Source: Rhodoferax sp. BAB1 (lineage in GTDB: Bacteria > Pseudomonadota > Gammaproteobacteria > Burkholderiales > Burkholderiaceae_C). Taken from it: a stretch of 64,000 bases of DNA. Positions 347-32,125 of the stretch are shown here, one piece after another. A program made the position numbers and the translations under genes. The stretch's first letter is position 1. Every line of letters starts with the position of its first letter. Below the pieces are notes generated by a model that worked only from the letters and a program-made list of their open reading frames with translations, did no database searches and was not told the origin of the DNA. The DNA lies in the NCBI RefSeq assembly GCF_013334205.1, contig NZ_CP054424.1, positions 2,438,001 to 2,502,000 on the forward strand. Reading direction: 5' to 3'.

Positions 347-380
347 TGCCGACCGAACCTCAATAAACAAAGGAGACAAA

Positions 381-3172: not shown

Positions 3173-3286
3173 AGAGGCCTGGATTTGGCGAGCTTCTATT
3201 TTTTTGAAAAGCCGAACCCGAATCCGGATACGCTGTCGCGCTCACTACTATGAATGCCGCTTAGGGCGAAGGACAACCTGTTGACT

Positions 3287-4069: not shown

Positions 4070-4109
4070 CGCATCGATTCTGCATTGATGGTGGTCAAAA
4101 GAATTTCAC

Positions 4110-4134: not shown

Positions 4135-4228
4135 ACTTTATCAAACTGAGGCCGGAGCCACACACTTCCCCCCTGTTTTCGCCATCCGTCTGGTTCATCC
4201 GGACAGTCATTACCCGAGGAGAAGAGAC

Positions 4229-5185: not shown

Positions 5186-5220
5186 TCGACGCGCAGATCC
5201 CCCAACGCAAGGTAACCATC

Positions 5221-6459: not shown

Positions 6460-6470
6460 GAGCCAGATTG

Positions 6471-7897: not shown

Positions 7898-7905
7898 ATA
7901 TTTGA

Positions 7906-8937: not shown

Positions 8938-8995
8938 TTGAGAGTCAGCGAAGCCGAGTCCACGGAGCCGGCAGCAGCGCAGTCGAACAACCCGT

Positions 8996-11771: not shown

Positions 11772-11811
11772 CGAATGCCCTCGGTGACAGTCATCGGGTA
11801 TGGCGTTGTAC

Positions 11812-13098: not shown

Positions 13099-13193
13099 TC
13101 TGATCTCCTGTTCCGTATAGAAGAATGATTTTCCTTTTGGAGGAACAACGATACCATACCGTCAAACAATTCTGCAACCCACAGGAGACATCA
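13099..13193. promoter_or_regulatory. Divergent promoter region of the phthalate-type module
   Basis: The 95 bp between the oxygenase (minus) and the Bug receptor (plus) must carry both promoters. Both genes have clear SD sequences inside it: AGGAG on the minus strand and AGGAGA at 13183-13188 on the plus strand. Weak dyads are visible: TGTTCC near 13113 is mirrored by GGAACA near 13141, and ACGATA-CCA-TACCGT near 13148-13162 has one mismatch. Either could bind the IclR protein of this module, but neither is as good as the tph palindrome. Confidence 0.4.
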
Positions 13194-14171: not shown

Positions 14172-14187
14172 ACGGGATCTCGCAACC

Positions 14188-15177: not shown

Positions 15178-15219
15178 TTTCGCCTCACATTCCGACTCAA
15201 ACGAGCAACGTCGAATCGT

Positions 15220-16179: not shown

Positions 16180-16337
16180 GTGTTGATGCCGACGCCAGTA
16201 CGGCTAAGGGACCGAGGATCATTAATTGGGCGTGGCTGGATCGGAAAGTTGAAGCCCGTCGCTGAAGCGAACGCCTCGATCCACGACGTCTGGTTCTGAT
16301 CGGTGGTCAGCACTTGGCCGTTGGCGTCGAAAAGGGC
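16176..16337 (-). pseudogene. Possible remnant of a coding sequence, C-terminal 53 codons
   Basis: Read on the minus strand, 16337 to 16176 is open without a start. It encodes 53 residues (ALFDANGQVL ... TTDQNQTSWIEAF ... ending RTGVGINT) and ends with a TAG that overlaps the reductase stop in convergent orientation. A stop codon (TGA at 16338-16340) immediately precedes it. The composition looks protein-like, but I do not recognise the family. It may be the tail of a gene destroyed when this junction formed. Confidence 0.25.
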
Positions 16338-16399
16338 TCAGGTGGCTGACTCATCTAAGCCTCACACGTTGAGCAGTTGCTTCCGTGGCCGGAGAGTGT

Positions 16400-16620
16400 C
16401 CCCTTCGGGACGGCAGCACCAGTTCGTGGACCGCGATAGCGGCCACCCGCTGGTCCAAGTAGGGCCGTCATGACCATCTGCGGCAAAAAGTGCCTTGAAC
16501 GGCCGCTTCGCGCTCTGAAGCGGCCGGCCATTCTGCGAGCTGCTCAATGACTGGTACCAGCGACAGCAGTCATTGGCGCCCCGAAACCAAACGACGGCAG
16601 CCAGCCTCAAGCAGGCGTTC
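16400..16620. repeat. Dispersed intergenic repeat, copy 1
   Basis: About 200 bp similar to 23840-24055. Shared blocks include GTGGACCGCGATAGCGG, CTGGTCCAAGT, the CCTTGAACG run before a hairpin, ATTGGCGC-CCGAAACCAA and GCAGCCAGCCT. A perfect hairpin, GGCCGCTTC / GCGCTCT / GAAGCGGCC, lies at 16501-16525. The rest of 16180-16746 shows no gene I can support apart from the possible remnant at 16176-16337. Confidence 0.7.
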
Positions 16621-16746
16621 GTCCGCCGCCGGCCGGTTGGCAGCGATAGCAGTCGACCGGGACCATTCAGCGCCAATGCTGTTGATTCATCACCCAAACT
16701 GAGCCACTGTGTGTCCCTGGAAGCGTAAGCGTGCCGCTTTGGCCGC

Positions 16747-18315
16747 TTATGCCCGGATGAGGAAGTTGCGCATCATGCCCATGTCCTCGTGCTCGAGGTT
16801 GTGGCAGTGATAGAGAAACAGGCCTGGATGATCGGCAAAGCGCAGCAGCAGACGCACACGTTCGCCGGGCATGAGCAGCACGGTGTCTTTCCAGCCTTCG
16901 TCCACCAGGCCGGCGCTCAGGCTGCGCCAGGCCGATGTCGCCTGCGGATGCACACGCCGGTCCATGACGCGAAACTGCACGCCATGGATGTGCAAGGGGT
17001 GCGGCAAGCTGCCCATCATGCCCATGCCGGCTTCGTTGACGAACTGCCACACCTCGGTGCTGCCCAGGCGCACGACTTCATCGTCCGCCACGCGCTCCAT
17101 CTCGAAGACACGGCCGTTGAGGCCCCAGACCATGCCGCCGGCGGTGACGTGGAAGGTGCGCGGATTGTTGAGATTGCCCGCCTGCTCCGGCTGCAGTGGC
17201 GCGATGCGCGCCAGCCGCGCAGGCAATTTGCCGGCCACGGCAGCCCCCGGCCCCATGTGCAGCCTGAGCACGGAAAACGCTGCGCCCTGATCCAGCGCGC
17301 CTGCGCCGCCGCCCATGCGCCCCATGCCGCCCATCATGGAGCCGCCTTGTGCGGCAAAGGCCAGACTTTGCAGGCGCAACTCGTCTCCGGCAGCACGTAC
17401 CGAGAAATCGACCCACAGTTCCACGCGCTCGGCCGGCGCCAGCGTGACATAGGGGCGCGTCACGGGTTCGGCCAGCAGGCCGCCGTCGGTGCCGATCACG
17501 GTCATGGGCGTGCCGTCGTTCCAGGCCAGTTTGTAGATGCGCGAATTGGAGCCGTTCAGCAAGCGCAGCCGGTAGGCTCGCCGCTCGACATCCAGTGCGG
17601 CATCGGGCCGGCCATTGACCAGAATCTGCCCGCCCAGAAAGCCGGCCATGCGCGCCATCATGCCGCCCATGCCGCCACCGCCGCTGACGTAGTGCAGCTG
17701 GTTGTCGGTGCCGAAGCTGCGGTCCTGAATGACCAGCGCGAGATCGTGCTCGCCGCCGGGCAGGTCCAGGGCGCGCTCTTCCTCGTCGCTGACGATCAGC
17801 AGACCCGCCAGCCCGCCGTACACCTGGGTGCCCGTCAGGCCATGCGGATGCGGGTGGAACCAGTAGGTGCCGGCGCGGTTGGTGATCTCGAACTCGTAGA
17901 CAATCTGCCCGCCCGGCGGCACCGCGAAACGCGGGTGGCCGTCCATGGACTCGGGCACCAGCATGCCGTGCCAGTGCACCACACTGGGCTGGGGCAGCTG
18001 GTTGATGAAATGGATGCGCACCCGCATGCCGCGGCGCACCCGGATGATGGGGCCCAGGTAGCTGTCGGTCAGTGTGGTGACCGCGCTGGCATCGCCCTTG
18101 ATCACCTTGGCGTGGTAGCGCCAGACCCGCGTGGCCGGCCCACGGAAAATGCCTACCTGATCGGGCGCGGCGCGCAACGCCAGCTCAAGATCGGGGACGA
18201 AGTTGGCGCTGCTGCCTTGCGCTGCATGTGCCAGCGCAGGCACGGCACCCAGCAGGGCCGCGGCGCCCGCGCTGCCCAGAAACTGCCGGCGGCCCGGGGC
18301 GTGGAAGGCATGCAT
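16747..18315 (-). CDS. Multicopper oxidase (CueO/laccase-like), Tat-exported
   Basis: A 522-aa periplasmic three-domain copper oxidase. The N-terminus PGRRQFLGSAGAAALLG is a twin-arginine signal. Copper-binding motifs appear in order: HWHG, HPHPHG, HPLHIHG and HCHNLEHEDMGMM, the last including the type 1 Cys, His and Met. A Met/Gly-rich insertion (GGSMMGGMGRMGGG) in the middle resembles the methionine-rich segments of cuprous oxidases. It probably oxidises Cu(I) to the less toxic Cu(II) in the periplasm. It is last in the copper operon, its ATG directly abutting the stop of the Spy-like gene. Confidence 0.9.
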   Translation of the reverse strand: MHAFHAPGRRQFLGSAGAAALLGAVPALAHAAQGSSANFVPDLELALRAAPDQVGIFRGPATRVWRYHAKVIKGDASAVTTLTDSYLGPIIRVRRGMRVRIHFINQLPQPSVVHWHGMLVPESMDGHPRFAVPPGGQIVYEFEITNRAGTYWFHPHPHGLTGTQVYGGLAGLLIVSDEEERALDLPGGEHDLALVIQDRSFGTDNQLHYVSGGGGMGGMMARMAGFLGGQILVNGRPDAALDVERRAYRLRLLNGSNSRIYKLAWNDGTPMTVIGTDGGLLAEPVTRPYVTLAPAERVELWVDFSVRAAGDELRLQSLAFAAQGGSMMGGMGRMGGGAGALDQGAAFSVLRLHMGPGAAVAGKLPARLARIAPLQPEQAGNLNNPRTFHVTAGGMVWGLNGRVFEMERVADDEVVRLGSTEVWQFVNEAGMGMMGSLPHPLHIHGVQFRVMDRRVHPQATSAWRSLSAGLVDEGWKDTVLLMPGERVRLLLRFADHPGLFLYHCHNLEHEDMGMMRNFLIRA

Positions 18316-18990
18316 CTATGGTGCTCCCATCCAGCCCAGACCGCGCTGGGCGCGCGCCAGTTCCCTGCGCTGGCTGTCTGTCAGAAGTGCATCGGTCTTC
18401 TGCTGCAGGTCGATGGCGGCCAAGATGTGCTGGCGCTGGACATCGTGCAAGGCAAGGGCCGCCGCGCGGATGGCGGGCCAATCACGTTTTTCTGCAGCGT
18501 ACAGACGGCTCAGGCTGGCCTGGGACGCCCAGACCTGCTGCATGAGCGCGCGCTGGCGGTTCTGCGGCTCGCCGTGCAGTTGTACCAACTTCTGCTCCTG
18601 CTCGGGCGTGAGGTCGGGCAAGGCCCAGGGCATCGTGCCGTAGAAGCCCCCCGGCATGCCCATGCCATAGCCCATGCCGGGCGCACCGTAGGCGCCACCC
18701 ATCATGCCCCAGCCCGGGCCGTAGCCATCACGCCCCATCATGTCCGGCCCCATGCCGCGCCAGGCCGGGCCGACATCGCCCCGGTAGCCCTCGCCGCGGT
18801 AGCCGCGCTCACCCCGATACCCCTCACCCCAGTTGCCCATGTGACCCCAGCCGCCCATGTGTCCCCAGCCGGGTCCCGCACCACCGTCGTAGTAACCCAT
18901 GCCGCCGCGTCCGTGCCCGAAGGCCAGAAAACCGGTGACCACCACCAGGACCACCCACGCGGCGATCCAATACCAATGTCTGCGATTCAT
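18316..18990 (-). CDS. Spy/CpxP-like periplasmic protein with Met/Gly/Tyr-rich region
   Basis: A 224-aa protein. ATG 18990 follows AGGAG and starts a hydrophobic signal or anchor (MNRRHWYWIAAWVVLVVVTGFLA). A long region rich in Gly, Met, Tyr and Arg follows, with repeated GYRGE units and several MG pairs. The C-terminal helical part carries two LTxxQ motifs (LTPEQEQKL and LTDSQRREL) as in Spy/CpxP. Related proteins scavenge metals or chaperone proteins in the periplasm under copper stress. An upstream in-frame extension to 19365 overlaps the SHOCT gene antiparallel in frame and is not real. Confidence 0.75.
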   Translation of the reverse strand: MNRRHWYWIAAWVVLVVVTGFLAFGHGRGGMGYYDGGAGPGWGHMGGWGHMGNWGEGYRGERGYRGEGYRGDVGPAWRGMGPDMMGRDGYGPGWGMMGGAYGAPGMGYGMGMPGGFYGTMPWALPDLTPEQEQKLVQLHGEPQNRQRALMQQVWASQASLSRLYAAEKRDWPAIRAAALALHDVQRQHILAAIDLQQKTDALLTDSQRRELARAQRGLGWMGAP

Positions 18991-19073
18991 GATTGACTCC
19001 TTTGAGCTGTGTGCGCCACGCCGGCACGGCACAGGGGCCGCGTGAGCTGGCAAGTGCCTGCTGCCTGGTCTGT

Positions 19074-19328
19074 CTACTGCGTCAGTTCGCGTTTGATCTT
19101 GAGGTACTCGGCCTCGTCGATCTCGCCGCGCGCGTAGCGTTCCTTGAGGATGTCCATGGCCGAGCGTGAACCGCCGACGCTGTGACCGTGGCCCGGGCTG
19201 CCCGGGGGCTGGCCCAGCCATCGCACTACGGCGATGACGCCCACGATGATGATGACCCACCACAGGATCATGAAGATCCCGCCGAAACCGAAACCGAAGC
19301 CGAAAGGCATGCCGTATCCGTCCATCAT
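19074..19328 (-). CDS. Small SHOCT-domain membrane protein
   Basis: An 84-aa protein. It has a Gly/Phe-rich N-terminus ([17 protein letters not shown]), one transmembrane helix ([21 protein letters not shown]), then a C-terminal SHOCT motif ([26 protein letters not shown]). SHOCT proteins of this size commonly accompany copper P-type ATPases in beta-proteobacteria. Their exact role is unknown; regulation or oligomerisation at the membrane is a guess. Preceded by AAGGAGAAC just upstream of ATG 19328. It sits between the ATPase and Spy-like genes in the same direction. Confidence 0.8.
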
Positions 19329-19413
19329 GTGCGTTCTCCTTGTTGTTGAACTGTGTACGAGTCATGCGAAACGGGCGAGTTCCGTGGCGCGCCGAGTTCG
19401 CGCGCCTGGTGAC

Positions 19414-21768
19414 TCAAAGCTTGATCTGCCTCAAACGCAGCGCATTGCCGATCACCGACACGGAACTGAAGCTCATGGCCAGCGCCGCAATCAGCGGCGA
19501 CAGCAGCCAGCCCGTGAGCGGGTACAGCACCCCTGCTGCCACCGGGATGCCCATGGCGTTGTACAGCAGCGCGAACAACAGGTTCTGCTTCATGTTGGCC
19601 ACCGTGTCTTGCGAGAGCTTGCGCGCGACAACCATGCCGCGCAGATCACCCTTGACCAGGGTCACCTGCGCGCTGTTCATCGCCACGTCGGTTCCGGTAC
19701 CCATGGCCACGCCCACATCGGCGCGGGCCAGCGCGGGCGCATCGTTGATGCCGTCACCCGCCATGGCGACGATGCAGCCTTCCTTCTGCAAACGCTCGAC
19801 CAGCAGTAGCTTGTCCGCGGGTTTGACTTCTCCGTGCACCTCGTCGATACCCAGCCGCGCACCCACCGCCCTGGCGGTGGTGTGTCCGTCGCCCGTGGCC
19901 ATGACGATGCGCAAGCCGGCGGCCTTGAGGGTGGCCAGCGCCTCAGGGGTGCTCGCCTTGACCGGGTCGGACACGGCCAGCAGGCCTGCCAACTGGCCAT
20001 CAACGGCCAGGTGCATCACGCTGGCCCCTTCGGCGCGCAAGGCCTCGGCCTGATCCAGCAAGGACGTGACGGACACGCCGATTTGCTGCATCAGGCGGGT
20101 GTTGCCCAAGGCGAGCTGTCGCCCGCCGACCTGGCCGCGCACGCCGATGCCCGAGCCTGACTCGAAATTCTCCGGCTTGTCCAGCGCCAGGCCCTGCTCG
20201 CGTGCGGCGCGCACAATGGCATCGGCCAGCGGGTGCTCGCTGCCCTGGTCCAGACTGGCGGCGAGGCGCAGCACTTCCGTGGCGTCAAAGCCGGTGGCGG
20301 GCACCGCCCGGTCGAACGCCGGGCGGCCTTCGGTCAGGGTGCCGGTCTTGTCGATGATGAGCGTGTCGACCTTGCGGAAGTTCTCGATGGCTGCGGCGTC
20401 GCGAAACAGAACGCCCTGCGTGGCACCGCGCCCGGTGGCCACCATGATCGACATGGGCGTGGCCAGCCCGAGTGCGCAAGGGCAGGCGATGATCAGCACC
20501 GCCACCGCGTTGATCAGGCCATAGACCCAGCGCGGTTCGGGGCCGAACAGGCCCCAGGCAAAGAAGGTCAGCACGGCAATGGCCACGACGGACACCACGA
20601 AGTAGCCCGCCACCACGTCGGCCATGCGCTGCATGGGCGCGCGCGAGCGCTGGGCCTGCGCCACCATCTGCACGATCTGCGACAGCACCGTGGCCGCGCC
20701 AACGCGCTCGGAGCGCATGACCAGCGAGCCCGAGGTGTTCAGCGTGGCGCCGATCACCTTATCGCCCACGCGCTTGGTCACGGGCATGGGCTCGCCGGTG
20801 AGCATGGACTCGTCCACCGAACTGCTGCCCTCGACCACCTCGCCGTCCACCGGCACCTTCTCGCCGGGACGAATGCGCAAGCTGTCGCCCACGTGCACGT
20901 GACTCAGGGGCACGTCTTCCTCGCTGCCGTCGTCCTTGATGCGGCGCGCCGTCTTGGGCGCCAGGCCGAGCAGCGACTTGATGGCGGCCGAGGTTTGTGA
21001 CCGCGCCTTGAGTTCGAGCATCTGGCCCAGCAGCGTGAGCGAGATGATGACGGCCGCGGCCTCGAAGTAGACAGCCACCCGCCCCATGGAGACAAAGGAA
21101 TCCGGAAACACCTGGGGTGCCGCCGTGGCCACCACGCTGTACACAAAGGCGGCGCCGGTTCCCAGGCCGATCAGCGTCCACATATTGGGGTTGCGCGTGA
21201 CGACCGATTGCCAGCCCCGCACGAAGAAGGGCATGCCGGCCCACAAGGCAATCGGCAGGGACAGCACCAGCTCCACCCAGCTTTGCGTGCCCATGTCCAT
21301 CCACCGCAGGCGGTGGCCGAACATGGCCAGCACGAAAACCGCCGCCGTCAGGGGCAGGGTCCACCAGAAGCGACGCGAGAAGTCTTTCAGCTCGGGGTTC
21401 TCGTCATCGTCCAGGTTGGGCAGTACGGGCTCCAGCGCCATGCCGCACTTGGGGCAGTGGCCCGGGTGATTCTGGCGCACCTCGGGGTGCATGGGGCAGG
21501 TGTAGATGGTGCCTGCGGCTGGGGCGTCTGTCGCGGCCGCGCTGGATTGCGCCGGTGCCAGATACTTTTGCGGGTCGGCCGAGAACTTGCCTTCGCACTT
21601 CGCGCTGCAAAAGTAATAGGGCCGACCCTCGTGTACCAGCTTGTATTTCGCCTGCTCGGTGACCGTCATCCCGCATACGGGGTCTTTCAGGGAGTCAGGT
21701 GAAATCGCGGCGACATGCCGGGCGTGAGGGGTGTGATCGCCAGCTGAATGGTGGGTGGTGTTGGCCAT
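19414..21768 (-). CDS. copA: Copper-translocating P1B-type ATPase with N-terminal YHS and metal-binding domains
   Basis: A 784-aa heavy-metal exporter. The N-terminus carries a YHS domain ([10 protein letters not shown] ... [12 protein letters not shown]) and a heavy-metal-binding motif ([26 protein letters not shown]) instead of the usual CxxC ferredoxin-like HMA domains. Transmembrane copper site [10 protein letters not shown], phosphorylation site DKTGTLTEG, nucleotide-domain HP (SEHPLAD) and hinge GDGINDAP are all present. It pumps Cu(I) out of the cytoplasm and is first in the copper operon. The promoter would lie in 21769-22050, where I see no clear CueR-type dyad. The gene symbol is by function class; silver transport is also possible. 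Confidence 0.9.
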
Positions 21769-22050
21769 ACGGTGACTCCCTTCCCGTTAGATCTGGATGG
21801 GTATCGCGCCTCATCATTTCGCCCACTCGATGAGGCGACAGGGGCGCGGCCGGTCATGCTGCACGAACCATTGGACGCCAGATTCAGACCATTCGCAACA
21901 GCAACTGTGATGAATCATGCATCGGGCGCGGGTTGGCGCTCGTAAAAAGGCCTGCTCCAGCGCATCGAGCACGAAGCATTGACGAATGCGGCCAGGCTGA
22001 TGTCCACTCGGGTATCTTGGCCGAAACGGTCAGAATCAGGAGCGCCTGCC

Positions 22051-22422
22051 ATGACACAAACTGCCACCGTCTCCATCAACGGCCGGGACGTTCTGGTCGA
22101 ATGGAGCCCTGCTGCGGCGAAGGCACTGGCCGCGCGGAACACACCGCTCATCGTCGAGCTTGAACTGTATTTTTCCTGCCTGGTGAAGAAGTTCGTGCAC
22201 TTCCATGACGATGCGCCGGGCCGCAGCACCGTGGCGGTTGGCAGCAAGCTGCGGCTCTACTTTCGCCCCGTCACGTCGACGGCTTGCCATATGGAGCAGG
22301 CTGAAGCCCTGGGTCGGCAGCCTGAAGTCGAACTGGACACCGATGCAGTACGCAAGATGGCGCCGAAGAAGGTCAGCATCGACCACGTGAAAGGCGCATG
22401 GCGGGGCAGCTACAGCCTTTGA
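22051..22422 (+). CDS. Conserved hypothetical protein
   Basis: A 123-aa soluble protein starting at ATG 22051, with AGGAG at 22038-22042. There is no signal peptide or membrane segment. The central part (LELYFSCLVKKFVHFHDD) and the basic C-terminus (KMAPKKVSIDHVKGAWRGSYSL) suggest a compact folded protein, but I do not recognise a domain. Longer in-frame starts upstream (from 21979) lack an SD. It stands alone on the plus strand next to the copper operon, with no obvious operon partner. Confidence 0.6.
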   Translation: MTQTATVSINGRDVLVEWSPAAAKALAARNTPLIVELELYFSCLVKKFVHFHDDAPGRSTVAVGSKLRLYFRPVTSTACHMEQAEALGRQPEVELDTDAVRKMAPKKVSIDHVKGAWRGSYSL

Positions 22423-22444
22423 AGACTGCCGAATGACTGCTTTT

Positions 22445-22565
22445 GTGAGGGGGTTGCTTCCGCTATGGGCCGGGAACATCTGCCTTGAACAGCGGCTTCA
22501 CGCTCTGCAGCAGTCATCAGGGCTCCGACACCGAGTGACTGCAGACAGCCTTGAACGGACATCGG
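22445..22565. repeat. Dispersed intergenic repeat, degraded copy 3
   Basis: Contains CCGCTATGGGCCGGGA, CATCTGCCTTGAAC and AGCGGCTTCACGCTCTGCAGCAG, which track the corresponding blocks of the repeat at 16400-16620 and 23840-24055. The central hairpin has decayed. The remainder of 22566-22928 is non-coding as far as I can see; it contains a small hairpin (CCGCA-CTTTTT-TGCGG) just upstream of the next gene. Confidence 0.45.
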
Positions 22566-22928
22566 CCACGATTGAGTGAACTACCGCCCCTGGCCGCCAG
22601 CGTGAGTACCAGGCGTCGCCAGGGAGCTGATCTTCAGCGCGGCGGCCCTGCCGGCCAGAGTCTGCTTGCGACATACCCCGGGGAGACCCGGTCCCGGCCA
22701 AAAGCGGTCACTGAGTGATCCTTTTTGGGGGATAGACGTTCCGTGGCGCTCGTAGCGGCAGCCGGCCGTTACATTGCGGGGTTTCACGGTTTGTTATGAG
22801 CGCGGCTCTGCGCTATATTCGTGAGAATTCTTCAGACAAAACAAGCACTTAGCTTGCAGCAAGGGAGGCGCCAGGATGAACGTCCGTCCATGTAATTCCG
22901 CACTTTTTTGCGGTCCATATCACGTTAG

Positions 22929-23801
22929 ATGACAGACGCCGCCCCATCCGTCGCCTCACCATTGCTAGCTCTCGCCGAGCAAGTAGGGAAAGCCGTGGCC
23001 GTAATTGCTTCGCTGCTTCTTGTCGTCTCGGTCTTCTTCGACTACAGCTTCTTGCTTGCCATCGGCCTTTCCTTTGACGAGATTCCAAGCTCATTGTCTG
23101 AGCATGTCAGAAGCGCAATCCTGTGGGCGCCAAAAGTGCTTCTGACGGCCCTTGCATTTTTCATGTACGGGTTATTCCTTCGGAGGGTGGAAGGCGGAAA
23201 GTCCGAAGAAGAACTTATTGCGAGTTCGCCAACGCCCCGGTTTACACGGGCATTCCGAAAGTTCGGAGACTTGGTTGTCCCCGTTGTCGGCTCACTTGCA
23301 GCCTTGGTTGGACCATTCCTATCCAACGACCTACAGTGGGCCTACCTGCTCTTTATCCTGCTGTGGGGGTTTCTTGCGTTATCGGTAATCAATCACCCTC
23401 GCTTGGGAGCTTCGCTTTTGGGCCTACGCGCTCGACTGTTCGTCATGATCCCAATACTGCTTTCTATGGCTGGACTTCACGGCTATCAATCTGGTACTCG
23501 TATGCTCACAACGGCAACGCCGAAATGGGAGATGGTTCTCCGTGATGGATCAACGACGACGAAACAGACTCTATTGGGCATTCGTCGATTTGGTGGCTTC
23601 GCAATCGTTGTCGACCAAGCAAGGCTCGTCAGTGTCATTCCAAACGACGCCATAGTCTCTGTTAAGAATCTTGTGTCTCCGGTGCAGAGCGAACTAAATG
23701 CCTGCCGCTGGTTTGGCGTTTTATGCCAGTCTGCACAGAATCTGTCATCTAACCCTGCGGTCCAGGGGACGCTGCGCGATAAAGCCGCGCAGCGCCCCTG
23801 A
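22929..23801 (+). CDS. Hypothetical membrane protein whose 3' end runs into a repeat
   Basis: A 290-aa protein with four or five hydrophobic segments: VAVIASLLLVVSVFFDYSFLL; a second around LLTALAFFMYGLFL; two around VVPVVGSLAALVGPF and AYLLFILLWGFLALSVI; and one near FVMIPILLSMAG. A soluble tail of about 90 residues follows. The last 16 residues (NPAVQGTLRDKAAQRP) are encoded by a GC-rich hairpin repeat, so the natural C-terminus was probably replaced when the repeat landed. GC content is lower than the core genome. I do not recognise a family and the neighbours give no function. Confidence 0.6.
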   Translation: MTDAAPSVASPLLALAEQVGKAVAVIASLLLVVSVFFDYSFLLAIGLSFDEIPSSLSEHVRSAILWAPKVLLTALAFFMYGLFLRRVEGGKSEEELIASSPTPRFTRAFRKFGDLVVPVVGSLAALVGPFLSNDLQWAYLLFILLWGFLALSVINHPRLGASLLGLRARLFVMIPILLSMAGLHGYQSGTRMLTTATPKWEMVLRDGSTTTKQTLLGIRRFGGFAIVVDQARLVSVIPNDAIVSVKNLVSPVQSELNACRWFGVLCQSAQNLSSNPAVQGTLRDKAAQRP

Positions 23802-24055
23802 CCTCCACGTTGAGAGTCCGCTTTCGCTGTCGACGACGGTCCGCTATGGGTCGAAATCGCCAGTTAATGGACCGCGATAGCGGTAGATCGTTGGTCCAAG
23901 TCGGGCAGTCTTGGCCATCTTTGGCGGCCGATCCCTTGAACGTCCGCTTCGCGTTGTGAAGCGGCCCGTCAGCCTGAGAGCCCTTCAGTGGCTGGTATCG
24001 ATAGGAGCGGACATTGGCGCTCCGAAACCAATTGGCAGCAGCCAGCCTTTAGTGG
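23755..24055. repeat. Dispersed intergenic repeat, copy 2, with hairpin at its left end
   Basis: The left end has a perfect stem CGCTGCGCG (23770-23778) / ATAAAGC / CGCGCAGCG (23786-23794), extended by AGGGG and CCCCT. The stretch 23840-24055 matches copy 1 at 16400-16620, with a second hairpin CCGCTTC / GCGTTGT / GAAGCGG at 23944-23964. This accounts for nearly all of the non-coding gap before the polymerase gene. Confidence 0.7.
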
Positions 24056-24116
24056 GTGTTGGAATTACCTTTGGCGTTGATCAAAGGACTCGGCAAACAG
24101 AAGCGCGGTGAACTGG

Positions 24117-25400
24117 CTAAAACAATTGCCCCGTGCGAGCTTGCGCATGCAAGTCCTGCGTCATTTCTATCACGTTGGCCGATGTTTCGATCTCCTCCCA
24201 TTCGGCAAGGCGGATTAAGGTGCCAATACGCACGCCAAGCAATCGCAAACGACGCTCAAGTGGCGCGCGCTTTAGGCATTTCCCAGCAGCAGCGCGAATG
24301 ACTTTTGAGTTGTCTGTGTAATGCGGAAGCGTCAAGTCACGGGTGACGCTCCTGAAGTCATCGTAGCGCAGCTTGATGCCGATGGTGCGCCCCACGTAGC
24401 CCTTGCGCTGGAGGTCGTCGGCCACGCTCTCGCAAAGGGCGGTGAAGATAGCACCGAGCTCGGACTTGTCGCGCACGGCGTGCAGGTCGCGCTCAAAGGT
24501 GGTCTCACGGCTGATCGAGACCGGCTCGCTCTCCGTCATAACGGGCCTCTCGTCGCGTCCCCAGGATGCCTCATGCAGCCAAGCGCCGTTACTTTTTCCG
24601 AAGTGGGCAATGAGCCAGTCGCGCTCACGTCCTGCGAGCTGCCCAATAGTTTCGATGCCGTAGCTCCGGAGCTTCTCATCCATCTTGGGACCAACCCCGT
24701 TGATCTTGCGGCATGCAAGAGGCCAGATTATGGACTCCAGATCCTCGCCGTGCACGATCGAGATGCCGTTCGGTTTGTTGAACTCACTGGCCATCTTTGC
24801 AAGTAGTTTGTTGGGCGCAACTCCGATGGAGCAAGTCAATCCCGTGCCTTCGAAAATTTCCTTTTGAATGAGCCGGGCCAGTACTCGTCCACCAGAGCGC
24901 TGACCACCAGGCACTTCGGAAAAATCAATAAACACCTCATCAATGCCCCGGTTCTCCATGACGGGCGCAATGTCTTTAATGATGGATTTGAAGCGTTGGG
25001 AATAGCTTCGATACTCTATAAAATCCGTTGGCAGCATGATGGCTTCGGGGCAAAGCTTTGCTGCCTTCATCATGCCCATTGCCGATCCCACACCGAATTT
25101 GCGCGCCATATATGTGGCAGTGGTTATTACGCCGCGCCCGGTGTAATCCCTAAGTCGTCCAAATCCGCTGACAGGGATTTGACTCAATGCAGCCCGCTCT
25201 GTGGCCGCATCCCACGCAGTGTTGGGGTTCATTTGCAGCTTATCTTCACGAATCCGCTGCAACGCCAGATCAATGGCGCCGCGCCCGCCGCCAACTACCA
25301 CGGGAAGTCCTTTGAGTTGAGGATACCTTAGCAACTCCACAGATGCGAAAAACGCGTCCATGTCGAGGTGTGCGATGCGTCGAATTGTGGGAGAGGCCAT
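24117..25400 (-). CDS. dinB: Y-family DNA polymerase (DinB/Pol IV-like), associated with the recombinase element
   Basis: A complete 427-aa translesion polymerase. It has DMDAFFASVE (metal ligands), YTGRGVITTATYMARKFGVGSAMGMMKAAKLCP, the catalytic RGIDEVFIDFSEV, GVAPNKLLAKMAS, the helix-hairpin-helix KINGVGPKM, and a little-finger domain ending in ARTGQLF. It bypasses lesions in an error-prone way. It shares a long N-terminal similarity with the truncated, GC-richer dinB fragment at 31685-32125 on the other side of the recombinase genes. The 5' half is clearly AT-richer than parts of the 3' half (24340-24500), which may mean a mosaic gene. No LexA box is evident upstream. Confidence 0.9.
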   Translation of the reverse strand: MASPTIRRIAHLDMDAFFASVELLRYPQLKGLPVVVGGGRGAIDLALQRIREDKLQMNPNTAWDAATERAALSQIPVSGFGRLRDYTGRGVITTATYMARKFGVGSAMGMMKAAKLCPEAIMLPTDFIEYRSYSQRFKSIIKDIAPVMENRGIDEVFIDFSEVPGGQRSGGRVLARLIQKEIFEGTGLTCSIGVAPNKLLAKMASEFNKPNGISIVHGEDLESIIWPLACRKINGVGPKMDEKLRSYGIETIGQLAGRERDWLIAHFGKSNGAWLHEASWGRDERPVMTESEPVSISRETTFERDLHAVRDKSELGAIFTALCESVADDLQRKGYVGRTIGIKLRYDDFRSVTRDLTLPHYTDNSKVIRAAAGKCLKRAPLERRLRLLGVRIGTLIRLAEWEEIETSANVIEMTQDLHAQARTGQLF

Positions 25401-25750
25401 TTCTGCGATCTATGACAAAGGACCGTCTTTGGAACGTTTGTAGTCTATGGAGTTCGCGCGACTCGCCGGCACCTTTTCGGAGGCTGAATGAGACCCCTTA
25501 TATACAAGGGGAAAGAAATGGCCGAATACTGCGACGGGGGCGTCTGCCTAGCCCTACTTCAGTTCAAACTAGATTAGTCAGCAAAGCTTGTGGTCAGAAC
25601 TTGGGGGTTTTATCCACAGTGCCATGTCATTTCGACATGTTTACACTGTACCGCAAGAAAATGCCGAGGTATTTCTGCGAAAAATGGCGTAGCCAATCGA
25701 GCGCAATGCAACTTCCGCGCGCCGAGGAGATCGAGCGTCGGCTACGCCTA
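25401..25750. other. Non-coding stretch with several palindromes inside the mobile element
   Basis: 350 bp between the small coiled-coil gene and dinB without a credible gene. It contains CCCCTT-ATATAC-AAGGGG at 25494-25511 and CATGTC-ATTTC-GACATG at 25623-25639, both with perfect 6-bp arms, plus a sequence matching a DnaA box (TTATCCACA, 25610-25618). This is a candidate recombinase-binding or regulatory region; nothing here proves a function. Confidence 0.45.
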
Positions 25751-26212
25751 TTATTTTTCTATTGTGTCATCAAGTAGCCTACTCAGCGGCGTATTGCGTG
25801 TCCAAAGCACACTCAATTCATCGTATTGACGCTCACGAGTCGCATTCAATTCAGTTTGAAGACTGAGGATTTTGGCCTCTAGCTCCATGATGCGCGCTCT
25901 TAAAACTGCGCGAGAACTGTCTGCGTATTTTGACGAAGACTGGCGCTGCATGCGCCTTTCTACCTCGCACGCCTCCTCGTACGCCTCCCGGATCAGCCTC
26001 CGTCCGCCCCATGCCTTGGTCGATAGGGCATTGCGCTTGGGCGCAATTCGGAACTTCTTCTTGACGTGCGCCTCGATGTTCTTCCATGTAACAGGTACTT
26101 CGGCGTCGGGCAGCAGCCGCACCATCTCCACAATTTTCTTGGCGACTTCAAGCGTCAGAGTTTCCTTGCGCCCACCCTTCCGGACGCCCTTGGGCGCATT
26201 CGTACTATTCAT
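25751..26212 (-). CDS. Small basic/coiled-coil accessory protein of the recombinase operon
   Basis: A 153-aa protein. The N-terminus is basic (NAPKGVRKGGRKETLT), followed by a possible DNA-binding part (TWKNIEAHVKKKFRIAPKRNALSTKAWGGRRLIREAYEEA). A C-terminal coiled coil follows (AVLRARIMELEAKILSLQTELNATRERQ). ATG 26212 overlaps the stop of the 830-aa gene by 8 bp, as expected for a coupled operon; the open frame upstream to 26257 lies inside that gene. Size, position and coiled coil recall TnpC of Tn554-like transposons, which aids recombination. That is an analogy, not a demonstrated homology. Confidence 0.65.
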   Translation of the reverse strand: MNSTNAPKGVRKGGRKETLTLEVAKKIVEMVRLLPDAEVPVTWKNIEAHVKKKFRIAPKRNALSTKAWGGRRLIREAYEEACEVERRMQRQSSSKYADSSRAVLRARIMELEAKILSLQTELNATRERQYDELSVLWTRNTPLSRLLDDTIEK

Positions 26213-28697
26213 TGCCGGCCTCGTGGTCATCGTCTCCGTCCACTTCCAACAGGTCACGCTGGTCCTGCTTACCTAACTCCGTTTGCACAAACTGCGGATA
26301 CTTCAGCTCGAAAGCTTGAATACTTTCCTTCACCCCGGCCCTGCCACCGAGCCTCGCCTCTAACGCTCGCTCGTGTCCGGGGGCACCGTGGTACGAGGGG
26401 TTGTGGTACTTAATCAGGGCACCCGAACGATTGCTCTCCTTATTCAGCTGTTCAGCGAAACCAGTAAGTGCGAACGCTTCACCTAGCTTGTTGGCGAAAG
26501 ATCGGTCCTTGATCTGATCATTGATTTCATGGAATCTCGCGATCAGCTCCTTGGCCATCTGCTCAGGGTTTAAGCCTTCGCGCACGAGAGTCAAGATGTG
26601 TCCGTCTAGTGTCTCAGGATTGTCAGCCAATTGCCGATGACGAGCAATCAGCAGTGCCTCCAACTGGTTCACAATACTGCGGAACACAAGATCGGCATCC
26701 TTCTTGACTCTTTCATTGGTCGGCAGATGGCCCTTCACTACCAAACCTTCATTACACGGCGCGCATTTGTAAGACCGGCACGGTCGTTCGTGGTGCTGAT
26801 GAAGGCAGACCCCGTAGCGCTGCGGGTAAAGGACGATGATCTGATTCGCTGTACGTGCAACGGGCCGGTCTTCGGTTGCCTGCATGATGTCGTTCATGCT
26901 CGTGACAGCGATGTTCGCTTCACCAAGCGCCACAATCTGTGTTTTTAGCCCGTACTCATTTTCAATTGCCCCGAGCCTTTGCAGGCCCTGAGTCATGTCC
27001 CACAACTCCTTGACGTCCGGCATGGCGGCCTGATCGGCCTTGTGCTCAGCGCCTCTCAAGTCGTAGGCTTTGAGCTGATTGATGCTGAGGCGGTTGGCCC
27101 ACTTGTTCGCAAGCACATCCGGTAAGCCTGAATCAAGCGCCTGTGAAGTTAACCACCGCCGCGGATCATGGGTGTTTATGTATGCCGTCTCTACGACCCC
27201 GTCCACCACCATCTTGATATCCAGCTTTTCAAACAGTGTTGGCTCTTTCTTCCAGTCACTCCGGTATTGTTTACCTGAAGATGGCTTTCTGTCATTTTCG
27301 GTCTGCCGCAAGCGAAGGACTAGCGAGTTGTATTTAATAGAACCAGGTAGGTAGGGCGTTTGCGCGCTGTCAAACAGCATCAGCATGTTAGACAAACGCC
27401 CCTGGTAGTGATTGCCACGCGTCACTCTCCGAAGGTCCTCCATCGCCTGCTTCACCCTTGCCAACAAGACAGGCTCTAGGTCGGACCATCCAACTGCCAG
27501 GATTGATTCTCTTGTGTACTTTGCGCCAGCGTACCTGTGAGTCCCGGAGTTAGTTGTCTTCTTTATGAAGCCCTTTCGGCGCAGCTCTTCCCAAATCGGT
27601 TTCACATTAGATTCTTTTTTTGCAGTCGGTTCTTGGCTTTCCAAGTTCGTGATCTTCCAAAGCGCTTTCTTATTGATATCGGTTCCTCGCAGATGCTCAA
27701 GCTCAGCGGGCAGGTACAGAACGTCAGGGCGCTCCGAGTACCAGTTCACCAGCATTCGGGAACGTTCGCCGTGCTGCCTAATGACGTCGATACACAAGTC
27801 GGCGAAGGCGATCATGAAATTGAGGATCGGTTTCCCGCCCCACGCCGCCCCTTTGGATCCTTTGACCAGCAGCATCTGATGCACCCGCTCCAAGGATTGA
27901 CCATCACTGCCAACATCAGGTTCAGATGTGCGCATCATGTAATCCTCCAAAGTGAAGCGATCGTCCGCTGCCATGCAGAGCGGCTCGTTCACCCGGTTGG
28001 GACAGCACATATTGAGTCCCATCACCGCCAAGGCTACACGGTCATAAGCAGACAGCCGGTCATCGCCTCGAAACATAGCCGTCTGCGCATCTGACAGGGC
28101 TTCAATTTGCCGCTCCAGGATTGCCACTTTCTTGGCCCTGAAGTTCCTACTTGTGCTCTTGCTGAGTGCCCAAAGCTGCGATTTGGTCTGCGGCGCAATG
28201 TTCCATGCCAACCGGTCTGTGACGCCAGCAGCACCAACCAGATCGATTTGAGCACGAAGGGCCAAAAGGTTCCCGTACAGCCCGCCTGCAGTGCCTGGTG
28301 ATGCTTTGGCTCGTTCAACCACGACGTCTTCAAGCTCGGTCAGATGCACCCGCCTGAGTTGGTACAGCGGCGCGTCGATTTGGGACAGGAGCCGCCATCC
28401 AGGTAACTGGCCGTATGGGTCCTTGATTTCACCCTTCAGGGCGATCTCAGCCATGATGCATTTGAGCGCCAGTGCATAGGCAGGATCCTTGCCTTCAAAG
28501 TCGGCGAGGGCTGGGGCGAAGCTAACGTCCAGGAGCTTTGTTTTGTAGCGGGTCCAAAGAGGCCAGTGGTCCGAGTCGAAGTCGATTTCTGGCCAGCGCG
28601 CATTCATGCGTGTCCTGCAGTCCTCAAGCCAGGCTTTCTGCGCCGAGCCGCGCTGCGCGATGTCCAGTTCGACGAAAACGTCTTGCCTTGCATTCAA
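26205..28697 (-). CDS. Large tyrosine-recombinase-like protein (third of the trio)
   Basis: About 830 aa. The start is taken as TTG 28697: it overlaps the upstream stop (TTGA) and has GGAG 7 bp before it; the open frame continues to 28739 and an ATG lies at 28607. Catalytic-type residues are CCPNRVNEPL (box I Arg), HDPRRW (HxxR), and a downstream KWANRLSINQLKAYDLRG that places a Trp and a candidate nucleophile Tyr. Long unclassified N- and C-terminal regions flank this core. A cysteine/histidine cluster (CLHQHHERPCRSYKCAPC) near residue 660 could bind zinc. It probably takes part in integration and excision of the element. Confidence 0.7.
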   Translation of the reverse strand: MNARQDVFVELDIAQRGSAQKAWLEDCRTRMNARWPEIDFDSDHWPLWTRYKTKLLDVSFAPALADFEGKDPAYALALKCIMAEIALKGEIKDPYGQLPGWRLLSQIDAPLYQLRRVHLTELEDVVVERAKASPGTAGGLYGNLLALRAQIDLVGAAGVTDRLAWNIAPQTKSQLWALSKSTSRNFRAKKVAILERQIEALSDAQTAMFRGDDRLSAYDRVALAVMGLNMCCPNRVNEPLCMAADDRFTLEDYMMRTSEPDVGSDGQSLERVHQMLLVKGSKGAAWGGKPILNFMIAFADLCIDVIRQHGERSRMLVNWYSERPDVLYLPAELEHLRGTDINKKALWKITNLESQEPTAKKESNVKPIWEELRRKGFIKKTTNSGTHRYAGAKYTRESILAVGWSDLEPVLLARVKQAMEDLRRVTRGNHYQGRLSNMLMLFDSAQTPYLPGSIKYNSLVLRLRQTENDRKPSSGKQYRSDWKKEPTLFEKLDIKMVVDGVVETAYINTHDPRRWLTSQALDSGLPDVLANKWANRLSINQLKAYDLRGAEHKADQAAMPDVKELWDMTQGLQRLGAIENEYGLKTQIVALGEANIAVTSMNDIMQATEDRPVARTANQIIVLYPQRYGVCLHQHHERPCRSYKCAPCNEGLVVKGHLPTNERVKKDADLVFRSIVNQLEALLIARHRQLADNPETLDGHILTLVREGLNPEQMAKELIARFHEINDQIKDRSFANKLGEAFALTGFAEQLNKESNRSGALIKYHNPSYHGAPGHERALEARLGGRAGVKESIQAFELKYPQFVQTELGKQDQRDLLEVDGDDDHEAGNE

Positions 28698-30238
28698 GAA
28701 CTTTCTCCTAGCCCGGCAGCCGGATTCTTCAACTGGCAAATACTGATCACCACGCGGATCGCATTTCTAAGTTGCTTGTACTTTTGAACCTCGTGTTGCA
28801 GGGCGAGCCCCTGCCCCTCGAAATCGGCGATCTCCCGATTTACCAGATCCAGGTTGATCGTGTGGTCGGCATCCCAGCACGGCCGGAACTTGTTGCAGTC
28901 GTAGCAGGCAAGTGGCGCGTACCCGCACAAGCTTTGCCTACCGCACGCCGCAGTCACCTCACGGCGTCCTGTGGCAAGGTCTTCACTGACAATGGGATTG
29001 TCCTTCGCGATCTGGTCGTGCCTGCTGATCGCCCGCGCCATTACGTCTTTGTAGACAGGAAAGTGCTGATCGAATGCCGGTTGAATTGCGTCGCTAATTC
29101 GGTCGAGAACCCCTTGAAAAAAGAGATCGACGTATCGCTGGCATGCGGCATCTGTAGCGTGTCTTAAAACTACAGCGATACTTGATGCAGAGAGCCCAGA
29201 GAGCGCGAGCTGGGTTCCTACAGTGTGCCGCAGTGCGTTGAAACTTAGGCTGCGGCGACCAAGCGTAGCGATGGGGTTTAAGTAGCTTACTCTGAAGGAC
29301 CCGGAGCTCCCAGACATTCCATGATTCGCATTCGCGTGGTCATGGTGCCATGTTCCGTCGGCTTTCAGTCGTCTTGCTGGAAAGAGTGCTAGTTTGCTGA
29401 GGTCGGCTTCGTCAACCAAGTGGCCGTATCGCTGAACGACGTGCTCTCTCTGAAGTTGAAGAATCTCGCCGAGATCGGCGGTGATTTTGATGGCGAGACG
29501 GTACGGGCTGTCTACCCGAGTTTTGACGGGCAGCATGTCGAGGAACCAGGTCAACTGGCCGGTCACCTTGTTTTCATCTCGGGTTAGATCCATGAGCCTC
29601 AGCTTGCGGTAAGTCTCCGGCCGGAAGAAGACTTGGAAAGCGAGCATCGCAAACGCGTAAATCCCAATTTCGACTTCCCCGGCCTCATATGCATTTTCAA
29701 CTGCAGTAAGGGTCTGGGCTACCGCAGCACGACTCAATGCTTGCGACAAAATCCGCTTGATCGCCTCGCCTCGCTCACCCCTCGCCGAGACCAAGAGAGG
29801 AAAGTCTTCTGGCCGCAAGGCTGATTCGAAGATCGACTCATTGCCTCGGTTCGCCTGAAAGAAGCGCTTGAAGCCCTGCAGATTTGATTGGGATTGTTCC
29901 TGCTTGAGGCTCTCAAGCGCAGCAAGGTACGCGAGGTCGATTTGCTCAACAACGGCAGTCGTTATCCCGGCATCCTGGCACTTGAGCAGAATGGTCCTTA
30001 TGCGGGAGTACTCGTTAAATATCGTTTTAATCGATACACGGTTACGGCTGTTGATCAATGCTGTCTTCACTGCAATAAGGAAGGGCCGAGAATATCCCTT
30101 GGCAAGCATGGTGAGATCGAAGCTGAATTCTTCTGAACTCTGGTCCCTGCCATCACTCACCACGCGGGTCATAGTCCACAGCAACTCATCCTCAGTGCGG
30201 AATTGGTCCCCAGTGCTATTTGCTGCAGCCGTGTTCAC
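28694..30238 (-). CDS. Tyrosine recombinase/integrase-like protein (second of the trio)
   Basis: About 514 aa if started at GTG 30238, which overlaps the upstream stop by 4 bp (GTGA); the open frame extends to 30292 inside the previous gene. The catalytic domain shows a box I Arg (FFRPETYRKLRLMDL), NALRHTVGTQLALSG (HxxR-type motif with Asn in place of the first His) and LRHATDAACQRYVDL with the nucleophile Tyr. The tail holds five cysteines (CGRQSLCGYAPLACYDCNKFRPC), a possible zinc knuckle. Its stop overlaps the start of the 830-aa gene. It likely works jointly with the other two recombinases. Confidence 0.75.
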   Translation of the reverse strand: MNTAAANSTGDQFRTEDELLWTMTRVVSDGRDQSSEEFSFDLTMLAKGYSRPFLIAVKTALINSRNRVSIKTIFNEYSRIRTILLKCQDAGITTAVVEQIDLAYLAALESLKQEQSQSNLQGFKRFFQANRGNESIFESALRPEDFPLLVSARGERGEAIKRILSQALSRAAVAQTLTAVENAYEAGEVEIGIYAFAMLAFQVFFRPETYRKLRLMDLTRDENKVTGQLTWFLDMLPVKTRVDSPYRLAIKITADLGEILQLQREHVVQRYGHLVDEADLSKLALFPARRLKADGTWHHDHANANHGMSGSSGSFRVSYLNPIATLGRRSLSFNALRHTVGTQLALSGLSASSIAVVLRHATDAACQRYVDLFFQGVLDRISDAIQPAFDQHFPVYKDVMARAISRHDQIAKDNPIVSEDLATGRREVTAACGRQSLCGYAPLACYDCNKFRPCWDADHTINLDLVNREIADFEGQGLALQHEVQKYKQLRNAIRVVISICQLKNPAAGLGESS

Positions 30239-31545
30239 GTATCCGCCTTTCGCTGCAATTTGAGACGTTCGGCTCTCATGCTTTCCCACCAATCAGCGAT
30301 GTCAATGGCTGCCGCGTCGAAGGCTGCCCGGCGCGCATACAAATCCGGCATAGCGCTGTTGTTGGTCCAGCCGAAGCGATCTTTCATTTCACTCTTGGTT
30401 TGGTCACTGCCGCCTTTTTCTGCGACATAGAGTGTGGCGGCTGAGTGCCGCAATGTGTAGGCCACTAGCTCATATTCTTCGGCTTTCACATATGCATCTC
30501 CGGACTCCCTTGTCAGCATGCCCTGTTCTTGCATCCTTACCTCCGCCTCATTGAAGACGAGGCTGATGGTTTTCCTGTTTCGGATCGGACCGGCCCCCAG
30601 CACCTCAAGAAATAGGAAGCCCTTGGATTGGTTTTTTAGCCGGCGTGCCAGCAATTCGGCTCGCTCTGAACGGATGTAGTCCGATATTGCCTCCGATGTC
30701 CAAGGCCACAGCGTTATGGTGTACTGAGAGTTGTAATTGACAGAGTTGGACCGGGCTCCTTTTTGCACAGGCGTTCCTGAGGTAGGTGCCTCGTCTCTCC
30801 TGGCAATGTTGTCCTTAATCTCAAGGTAGCGGCCCTTGAAGTCCTCCAACTGAAGGTTCCCAATCGCTCCCGGTCGCAGACCTTCACAGGCGAGCAAGAA
30901 CACTGCCCGATTTCGCTTCATGGTGGAACTGGCGCCCTTACCACGACCGAAGATTGCTTCTGGGTTTGAATAGGCAGCAGTCATCAGTTGCTTAAAACGC
31001 ATCGTCGGAAGGGATCTCACCTGCGTCGGGTGCTTGCTTCCGGATCCCTTGATTTTGCTTTTCAAGTCATTGATGGAGGCTGCGTACCTGTCCTTCAACT
31101 CGCGGCGTGTTTGGGCAGATCGGATGCGTGGATCTAGGACAGCCACAAAGTACCAGTCGAGGAAGGTCGCGATCTGCACCAGTCGTGCACTGGCAGTAGC
31201 GCGCGTCACCGCCCCGGGTCGGTCTCTGTGAGCAACAACTTCGGTCTTGGCCAAACGAGAGAGCATTTGCGGAGTCATTGACTCGATCTCCTCCATCGGT
31301 CGATACGCCAAGTTCGCCAGCCACCCCACCTCCTGCGAGTGAAGACAGTGCCCTTCAAGTGCTCGGTGGGGCAGAGTCACTCTGAAAGCTTGTACAAAAG
31401 CTTGCAGCAGCCTTAGACCCCCGGTGACAGCCGTCCGGGTGTTGGGGTTGTCGTACTTTAAGTTGATGAATAGAGTGAATGGACCATGGAGTTCTCCAGC
31501 GTGGGTCAGTACAAGCGAGCGTCCGTTTGCTTCAACGAGTCTCAT
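30235..31545 (-). CDS. Tyrosine recombinase/integrase-like protein (first of the trio)
   Basis: A 436-aa protein starting at ATG 31545, first gene of the element's operon. It has an N-terminal SAM-like DNA-binding region (about residues 60-190). The catalytic domain shows CEGLRPGAIGNLQ (box I Arg), YTLRHSAATLYV (box II with Tyr replacing the usual His before LRH), and FGWTNNSAMPDLYARR with the nucleophile Tyr. The promoter must lie within 31546-31689, between this gene and the element's right end. Organisation as three overlapping recombinase genes recalls Tn554 and recombinase-in-trio elements, though these proteins are larger. Confidence 0.8.
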   Translation of the reverse strand: MRLVEANGRSLVLTHAGELHGPFTLFINLKYDNPNTRTAVTGGLRLLQAFVQAFRVTLPHRALEGHCLHSQEVGWLANLAYRPMEEIESMTPQMLSRLAKTEVVAHRDRPGAVTRATASARLVQIATFLDWYFVAVLDPRIRSAQTRRELKDRYAASINDLKSKIKGSGSKHPTQVRSLPTMRFKQLMTAAYSNPEAIFGRGKGASSTMKRNRAVFLLACEGLRPGAIGNLQLEDFKGRYLEIKDNIARRDEAPTSGTPVQKGARSNSVNYNSQYTITLWPWTSEAISDYIRSERAELLARRLKNQSKGFLFLEVLGAGPIRNRKTISLVFNEAEVRMQEQGMLTRESGDAYVKAEEYELVAYTLRHSAATLYVAEKGGSDQTKSEMKDRFGWTNNSAMPDLYARRAAFDAAAIDIADWWESMRAERLKLQRKADT

Positions 31546-31684
31546 TTGAAATACTCAAAATAGATAGTCACTCATCAGCACAATGCATTGTCGATAGGAT
31601 ACAAACCTGCACCACATGCAAGGTCATCACTCTACCGTTTTTCGAGGTATCTGATGATTAAATACAAATGTGGGATTTGATGAC

Positions 31685-32125
31685 TCATTGGACCTCGTCC
31701 ACACCGCGGTCCTCCATCACCGGCGCGATCTCGGTGATGAGCTCCTTGAAACGGCGTGAGTACTTGCGGTATTCGTCGAAGTCCACCGGCAGCAGGATGG
31801 CCTGCGGGCATAACTTCGCAGCCTTCATCAGGCCCATGGCCGAGCCCACGCCGTACTGGCGCGCCGCATAGGTGGCGGTGGTGATGACACCGCGGCCGGT
31901 GTAGTCCTTGAGCAGGGGAAATTCCGCCACCGGGATCTCCGACAAGGGCAGATCGGCATGTTTCAGCAGCAGCGCATCGTCGGGCCGGCGCCGCGCGCCG
32001 CCGATGACCACCGGCAGGCCCTGCAGCTGCGGGTAACGCAGCAGTTCAACCGAGGCGTAGAACGCATCCATGTCGAGGTGCGCGATGCGGCGCATCGGCT
32101 GCGGAGCGGCGGAAGAGGGAGCCAT
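31685..32125 (-). pseudogene. dinB: Resident dinB, 5' fragment truncated by the element
   Basis: From ATG 32125 the frame encodes the N-terminal third of a Pol IV: RRIAHLDMDAFYASVE, YTGRGVITTATYAARQYGVGSAMGLMKAAKLCP, then PVMEDRGVDEV. It runs into element DNA after DEV and ends two codons later (Gln, stop). The Asp-Glu pair is the second catalytic carboxylate motif, so the fragment cannot be an active polymerase. GC is high, as in the core genome, unlike the complete dinB at 24117-25400. Upstream of 32125 is a short gap before the divergent molybdopterin-domain gene. Confidence 0.85.

Follow-up and report, generated by a model that had tools for sequence, protein, structure and literature searches.

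Integrating elements usually avoid harming their hosts either by inserting at gene ends or by restoring the interrupted gene across the attachment (att) site. The island considered here, in the genome of Rhodoferax sp. BAB1, interrupts dinB, the DNA polymerase IV gene, well inside its coding sequence, and also carries a second, complete dinB. Much of it lies in the window, i.e., the whole stretch of 64,000 nucleotides that was analysed (NZ_CP054424.1, positions 2,438,001 to 2,502,000).

Tn554 inserts in radC and is smaller than the present island, and we know of no Tn554 that carries a copy of its target. The resemblance to it proposed in an earlier note on this DNA is fair: both have several tyrosine recombinases with a small protein. 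A 6-bp footprint is common to the two as well (PMC10214605; statements about published systems, here and below, follow the available parts of the cited texts). Tn554 lacks a counterpart of the Tfp type, and shares the spacer-and-footprint rule of the strand-biased circularizing elements (SEs). The likeness of the present island to SEs lies in a native 6-bp spacer at one end, a foreign 6-bp footprint at the other and imperfect inverted ends, but SE and GInt proteins form separate clusters and the SE gene order is IntA, Tfp, IntB, Srap (PMC10214605). Membership was rejected, the large GinC being third rather than second: the island works like an SE in its spacer rule without being one. An RIT element was also rejected, the archetype having three recombinases of 315-410 aa and no fourth gene (PMC10214605), against 436, 532 and 844 aa plus a fourth gene here, and 34-bp terminal inverted repeats, against ends that agree at 6 of the 15 positions compared. 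The nearest precedent for a carried target homologue is found in the rulB integron-like elements (PMC4542609), which, to judge from their description, likewise place three recombinases and a fourth gene in a Y-family polymerase gene. Their target differs, being rulB, entered 123 bp into the gene, and the 160-aa RulB-like ORF carried by one of them (ILEFH4) is short and in the opposite orientation, so that it provides no full replacement.

We assign the element to the GInts, an already described class of genomic islands (Bardaji 2017, PMC5385486), on the basis of its architecture and of 15 more distant operons described below. The shared features are the ginABCD gene order, an operon at one end beside the target, large variable cargo and site-specific insertion; with the gene order and the one-ended operon matching, the earlier view that no described family fits has to be given up. 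Reported GInt sites are gene ends, intergenic places and 5' ends (ssb, ribonucleotide reductase, ABC transporter; PMC5385486). The present clade differs from the GInts described there in having a larger GinC, in cutting at internal codons and in often carrying a homologue of the cut gene, of which the available text of PMC5385486 makes no mention.

The island and its insertion site

The features on which the argument depends are as follows (window positions, all on the minus strand):

1..31690, minus strand: part of the GInt inside the window, as delimited by its junctions with the split dinB and by the uninterrupted site at 15 loci of the genus
24117..25400, minus strand: carried complete dinB, DNA polymerase IV, 427 aa (IMS 1.1e-43, IMS_C 4.5e-25)
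25751..26212, minus strand: ginD, small protein, with homologues in the same position in 9/9 other islands
26205..28739, minus strand: ginC, large GinC, up to 844 aa, 32-49% identical to nine other GinC
28694..30292, minus strand: ginB, tyrosine recombinase, up to 532 aa, from weak family matches and conserved residues
30235..31545, minus strand: ginA, tyrosine recombinase, 436 aa, 34-44% identical to the same-position gene in nine other islands
31685..31702, minus strand: attL, with chromosome arm GTGGAC, native 6-bp spacer GAGGTC and element end CAATGA
31691..32125, minus strand: the first 145 codons of the resident dinB (its 5' part), up to ...GVDEV, from genome search, uninterrupted loci and tree

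In order of transcription, the 5' part of dinB is thus followed by the 436-aa, 532-aa and 844-aa genes, the small gene and the complete dinB, the four genes and both dinB sequences standing where the earlier note had placed them. The resident dinB is cut after codon 145, so that in its catalytic motif the codons for DEV are separated from those for YID (the frame 31685-32257 is annotated as the 5' part of an IMS polymerase in a family search). Its missing 3' part was found by genome search at genome positions 2418922-2419668, about 43 kb to the left of the carried dinB, and the island therefore spans 2419669-2469690, or 50,022 bp with the foreign 6-bp spacer counted in: about 31.7 kb inside the window, and 18,332 bp (2419669-2438000) to the left of its first position. 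The right-hand limit first proposed, 31690, was exact; the left-hand limit and the size of 7.6 kb were not.

Among 25 genomes of the genus searched for dinB, 15 dinB loci were compared, and in all 15 the left and right flanks of the island are contiguous to the base, with a few bases unaligned in L070 and dinB in two overlapping frames in L059. A base-exact junction in relatives excludes chance, and an artefact of this kind was ruled out on that ground. Where 9.5-12 kb stretches of the 15 relatives were compared, the carried dinB was the only part of the island to find a match; their resident dinB is uninterrupted at this site, and the arrangement that the earlier note had named as refuting its reading, an intact resident dinB in close relatives with the same left-hand genes beside it, was not found among them. 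As a separate observation, the two overlapping frames of L059 (G003:C1:1865150-1866279, a one-contig genome) look like a frameshift at the uninterrupted site.

Other features common to GInts are present: three tyrosine-recombinase genes and a small fourth gene in ginABCD order, an operon at one island end beside the target (ginA starts 145 bp from the junction), variable cargo followed by a short far end, AT-rich as judged by eye, before attR, and site-specific insertion, with its uninterrupted counterpart in 15/15 same-genus loci. GInts are also described as flanked by imperfect direct repeats of 10-17 nt; in the window island, no direct repeat as long as 10 nt could be clearly seen.

The carried dinB

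Four dinB-like matches are present in the genome: the complete gene, the 5' and 3' parts, and a distant relative at 36%. Apart from the carried gene, no intact dinB was found; the carried gene is full length with both polymerase domains, and lies 350 bp after ginD on the same strand as the split gene. It is 68-77% identical to dinB copies of the genus, against up to 93% for the split resident, and in a tree of 50 DinB proteins (bootstrap not fully converged) the resident is sister to the same-genus L055, to which it is 93% identical, and the carried gene pairs with a same-family gene from outside the genus (support 93/91). By these relationships the carried dinB is foreign in origin. Its GC content (0.560) is close to that of ginABCD (0.546), with the resident dinB at 0.66-0.68. 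No LexA-type box (CTG-N10-CAG) was found in the 360-400 bp upstream of the carried dinB, either in the window or in the Piscinibacter island described below.

Sequence comparison thus shows a gin operon, a split gene, a base-exact uninterrupted site in relatives and a carried gene that is foreign and intact, and with them both the insertion into dinB and the carriage of a complete dinB, as originally proposed, are borne out. We consider it likely that a GInt cut dinB and that the complete dinB it carries replaces the function of the split gene. The carried gene would then be expressed in place of the split one, and may be kept for that reason. The recombination steps can be modelled on published GInts and SEs: GinABCD would recombine the short, imperfect inverted island ends with an 18-bp target in the conserved dinB motif, so that the gin end would keep the native 6-bp spacer and the far end would bear a foreign 6-bp footprint; insertion after codon 145 would inactivate the resident polymerase IV gene; and the diverged dinB, the first cargo gene, would supply polymerase IV, so that the island may cost its host no function.

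The gin operon and its proteins

The 4-nt overlaps noted earlier exist at the first two junctions (GTGA, then TTGA), the first with ginB read from a GTG start at 30238, but at the third the overlap is 8 nt (ATGAATAG), with ginD starting at the ATG at 26212 (its longest frame starts at 26257). Of the products of the middle four genes, GinB alone has a family hit at E < 0.001; this 532-aa protein hits Phage_integrase (2.8e-5) and the NCBIfam site-specific integrase NF041502 (3.2e-28), both below the curated cut-offs, while the 436-aa GinA and 844-aa GinC have no match in Pfam or NCBIfam.

Residues conserved across all three large Gin proteins look like those of tyrosine recombinases, the assignment of residues being our own. 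In ten large-GinC islands they are R224, R366/H367, W393 and Y403 in GinA; R224, R355/H356, H378 and Y387 in GinB; and R249, K296, H524xxR527, W547 and Y559 in GinC. R249, H524, R527 and Y559 are kept in 13/13 aligned GinC (10 large, 3 of a distant kind), with W or F at position 547. GinC is said to lack the first catalytic arginine or the motif (PMC5385486, PMC10214605), and a tyrosine-recombinase-like R, HxxR, Y set in 13/13 sequences would run counter to that view. An AlphaFold prediction of GinC from a 7-sequence alignment reached a mean pLDDT (predicted confidence score) of 61, with the stretches around R249, K296, W547 and Y559 under 50, and a fold search of the PDB with it gave no match at E <= 0.001; the GinC fold is therefore unproven.

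Related islands and their targets

A GinC search yielded nine further large-GinC islands, at three plasmid or megaplasmid loci (one in two records) and six genome loci. The gene cut is recognisable in 8 of the 10 islands, the window counted, the two enterobacterial plasmid islands being the others. It is dinB in three (window, a Piscinibacter metagenome-assembled genome, Duganella flavida), and otherwise recJ, hsp20, lrp and, as judged by eye, a radical-SAM gene and a hydrolase gene. Two islands, that of Duganella and the hsp20 island of Janthinobacterium, are each in two contigs, joined via the halves of the split gene; the lrp island of Paraburkholderia caribensis (NZ_CP012748 2001348-2147434; L009/L134/L186) is a GInt of 146,087 bp, about twice the largest size in the available text of PMC5385486 (at least 70-76 kb). 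recJ is cut at its VGD|YDADG motif, and we take both this and the DEV|YID motif of dinB to have catalytic roles.

These targets bear on the possibility that the element is a stand-alone three-recombinase transposon of a new, dinB-specific family. The same dinB site is hit by three distinct gin lineages, which would suit such a family, but in the GinABC tree the dinB islands are not one clade, so that the site was reached more than once or is ancestral, and recJ, hsp20, lrp and radical-SAM genes harbour the same operon, which fits the described ginABCD. Trio homologues at unrelated sites had been set in advance as evidence against dinB as the target; since they were found, an exclusively dinB-directed element is ruled out, and dinB is a recurrent but not exclusive target. 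As stated, the dinB-specific family is refuted, and we give it almost no credence.

Two GinC profiles recovered the 15 more distant operons (2 + 11 + 2 across three samples), each with all four genes in the same layout. Eight of them lie behind ssb (for two of these the match extends no further than residue 108 of 160) and another two, by eye, behind ribonucleotide reductase, both being GInt sites reported in PMC5385486. Strong, full-length large-GinC matches are rare: one in a family sample of 399 genomes (G609, to judge by its coordinates the Piscinibacter genome once more) and, apart from the genome itself, none in the relatives, the order sample or the class sample (369 genomes). Scanning with GinC gave no relative among 111 candidate stretches of viral contigs, and with a single GinC none among 16 of genome contigs.

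Carried homologues of the split gene

A full-length homologue of the split gene is carried in 4 of the 6 gene-splitting large-GinC GInts with both ends located: dinB twice (window and Piscinibacter), recJ and hsp20. Three of these lie within about 330 bp of the far end. The stop codon of the Piscinibacter dinB is 311 bp from the far att site; the carried recJ (G438; domains DHH, DHHA1, RecJ_OB) starts 329 bp from the far end; and the carried hsp20, 79-80% identical to the split hsp20, starts about 225 bp from it, a genome search having placed it on one contig with the missing 5' piece of the split gene, 261 bp start to start. In all four genomes the carried gene is the sole intact close homologue found. 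The proposal that the element carries a replacement for the gene it breaks thus applies to two of the three dinB islands and to the recJ and hsp20 islands, but not to the dinB island of Duganella.

Homologues of ORFs flanking the gin side were also sought downstream at 22 loci (16 regions plus the window, L009, Piscinibacter, G438, L016 and L019; the Duganella and two enterobacterial loci lay outside this set). Matches appeared at four: dinB in the window and in Piscinibacter, recJ in G438, and one in G437, which was not counted, being by eye a heavy-metal domain of a neighbouring gene and not the split gene. The hsp20 homologue was missed because its contig ends. The scan of the hydrolase island covered 20 kb, and the 15 distant operons showed no carried homologue, four of them having less than 60 kb to scan (13, 31, 38 and 42 kb).

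One alternative is that the island is a GInt whose dinB is ordinary cargo, present by chance and unrelated to the target. GInt cargo is variable, two of the six islands have no carried homologue, and the carried gene is placed differently in the window island than in the other three. Close, full-length dinB genes occur about once per genome in the genus, however, so that one would be expected in about 1% of 50-kb stretches of a 3.8-Mb genome; and a homologue of an island's own split gene in 4/6 islands, in three within about 330 bp of the far end, speaks against chance. We regard this explanation as improbable.

A second alternative is repair after the event: insertion broke dinB, and the island later gained a foreign dinB under selection. 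The two carried dinB are of different lineages (that of the second island is placed elsewhere in the DinB tree) and at different places, and Duganella could represent a state not yet repaired. Against this, the GC content of the carried gene is near that of gin in the two dinB islands and the recJ island (carried, gin and resident: 0.604, 0.583 and 0.717 in Piscinibacter; 0.379, 0.352 and 0.496 in the recJ island), and three carried genes share a position near the far end. Later repair seems to us unlikely, if less so than chance cargo.

A broader possibility is that the large-GinC clade has evolved self-compensating insertion: its recombinases would target near-unchangeable codons of catalytic motifs, and each island would bring its own complete but diverged version of the cut gene, in most cases close to the far end, keeping the host fit and perhaps sparing the carried copy as a target. 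We hold this tentatively, at somewhat less than even confidence. Carriage of a copy of the broken gene survives testing and extends to other genes, in a small sample gathered along the way. Several observations weigh against replacement of function by the carried gene, the reading preferred above. Identity between the carried and the split RecJ is only 31%, and the window's carried dinB adjoins ginD, the other three carried genes being near the far end. In Duganella flavida, with the same dinB split, no intact dinB was found in the draft genome; the lrp island of Paraburkholderia has no Lrp homologue beyond the two split pieces; and the radical-SAM island, its far end not located, has no carried homologue in the 60 kb scanned (other matches in that genome to the 40 residues searched are weak, at most 45% identical). 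GC contrast is slight in the hsp20 island (carried 0.583, gin 0.555, resident 0.603), and three other cargo genes in the window are as low in GC (0.538-0.560) as the carried dinB. Finally, the Piscinibacter carried dinB has 4/18 mismatches to the att target, within the 0-5 seen in 31 ordinary dinB genes.

Attachment sites and possible target resistance

The 18-bp target, GTGGAC-GAGGTC-TACATC, is part of the dinB catalytic motif and is identical in 13 of the 15 same-genus loci. The far attR, outside the window, reads GCATAC GGCCAG TACATC. In six islands the gin-side and far spacers, their positions set by eye, are GAGGTC/GGCCAG, GAGATC/GAGATC, GAAATC/GATTGG, GTAGTC/AAAATC, GGAACG/TTTTTC and CGATCT/CCAGTT: the native six bases are kept at the gin end, the island has its own six at the far end, and the pair differs in 5/6. 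"Native" was checked in relatives for the window and lrp islands (for the window, 14 loci fit the search pattern, 12 of them with GAGGTC) and elsewhere deduced from how the split gene is framed. In 5/6 islands CATAC closes the far end, and the inverted ends are marginal singly, shifted controls being equally good in a fraction of 0.02-0.07 (4 islands).

Because these spacers follow the SE rule, and strand bias of GInts is called elusive in PMC10214605, the six-island pattern may be read as a comparative hint of such a bias. If that rule holds, the Piscinibacter island would derive from a site sharing its spacer (e.g., another dinB), and the window island from a different site.

The dinB carried in the window has 7 mismatches to the 18-bp target, against 0-5 in 15 genes of the genus and 0-8 in 31 order-level genes, and may therefore be a poor target itself; the carried RecJ and hsp20 genes have 7 mismatches each. 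That carried copies resist their own recombinase is thus weakly supported.

Other cargo

Two further groups of cargo genes were assigned from Pfam matches:

5221..8937, plus strand: Rieske ring-hydroxylating dioxygenase alpha and beta subunits, PdxA-like protein, ferredoxin reductase
19414..21768, minus strand: heavy-metal P-type ATPase

Cargo in window positions 1-24000, which also includes a TctC receptor, is mostly of host-like GC (0.57-0.68 in 2-kb windows), with gin and the carried dinB at 0.54-0.56. In other islands, a recurring pair of proteins of about 150-220 aa and about 750 aa directly follows ginD (G731, G454, G617, G711, and L009 at 18.1-21.0 kb); the larger resembles, by eye, a RecD/TraA-type helicase, and the two are possibly further core genes. 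The recJ island (G438, L126-L128) has, by eye, metal efflux genes and, near its far end, an MmeI N-terminal fragment and a CAP12/Pycsar-type TIR protein (Pfam).

Implications

The GInt type itself is known; what appears to be new, judging from sequence comparison, is a group of large-GinC GInts that cut genes internally and carry a homologue of the cut gene. In a mostly open literature, available in part, no earlier report was found of GInts that split dinB, or of any that bring along a copy of the gene they split. Cutting an enzyme gene at its active-site codons and bringing a whole substitute would be a different answer to the problem of insertion harm, and with the carried copy such islands may be able to break a gene at no loss of function to the host. 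If true, this would explain why the target can be a sequence that is among the most conserved and, for that reason, the most widely shared. Such islands can also be sought from sequence alone, and a seemingly duplicated repair gene can mark a mobile element.

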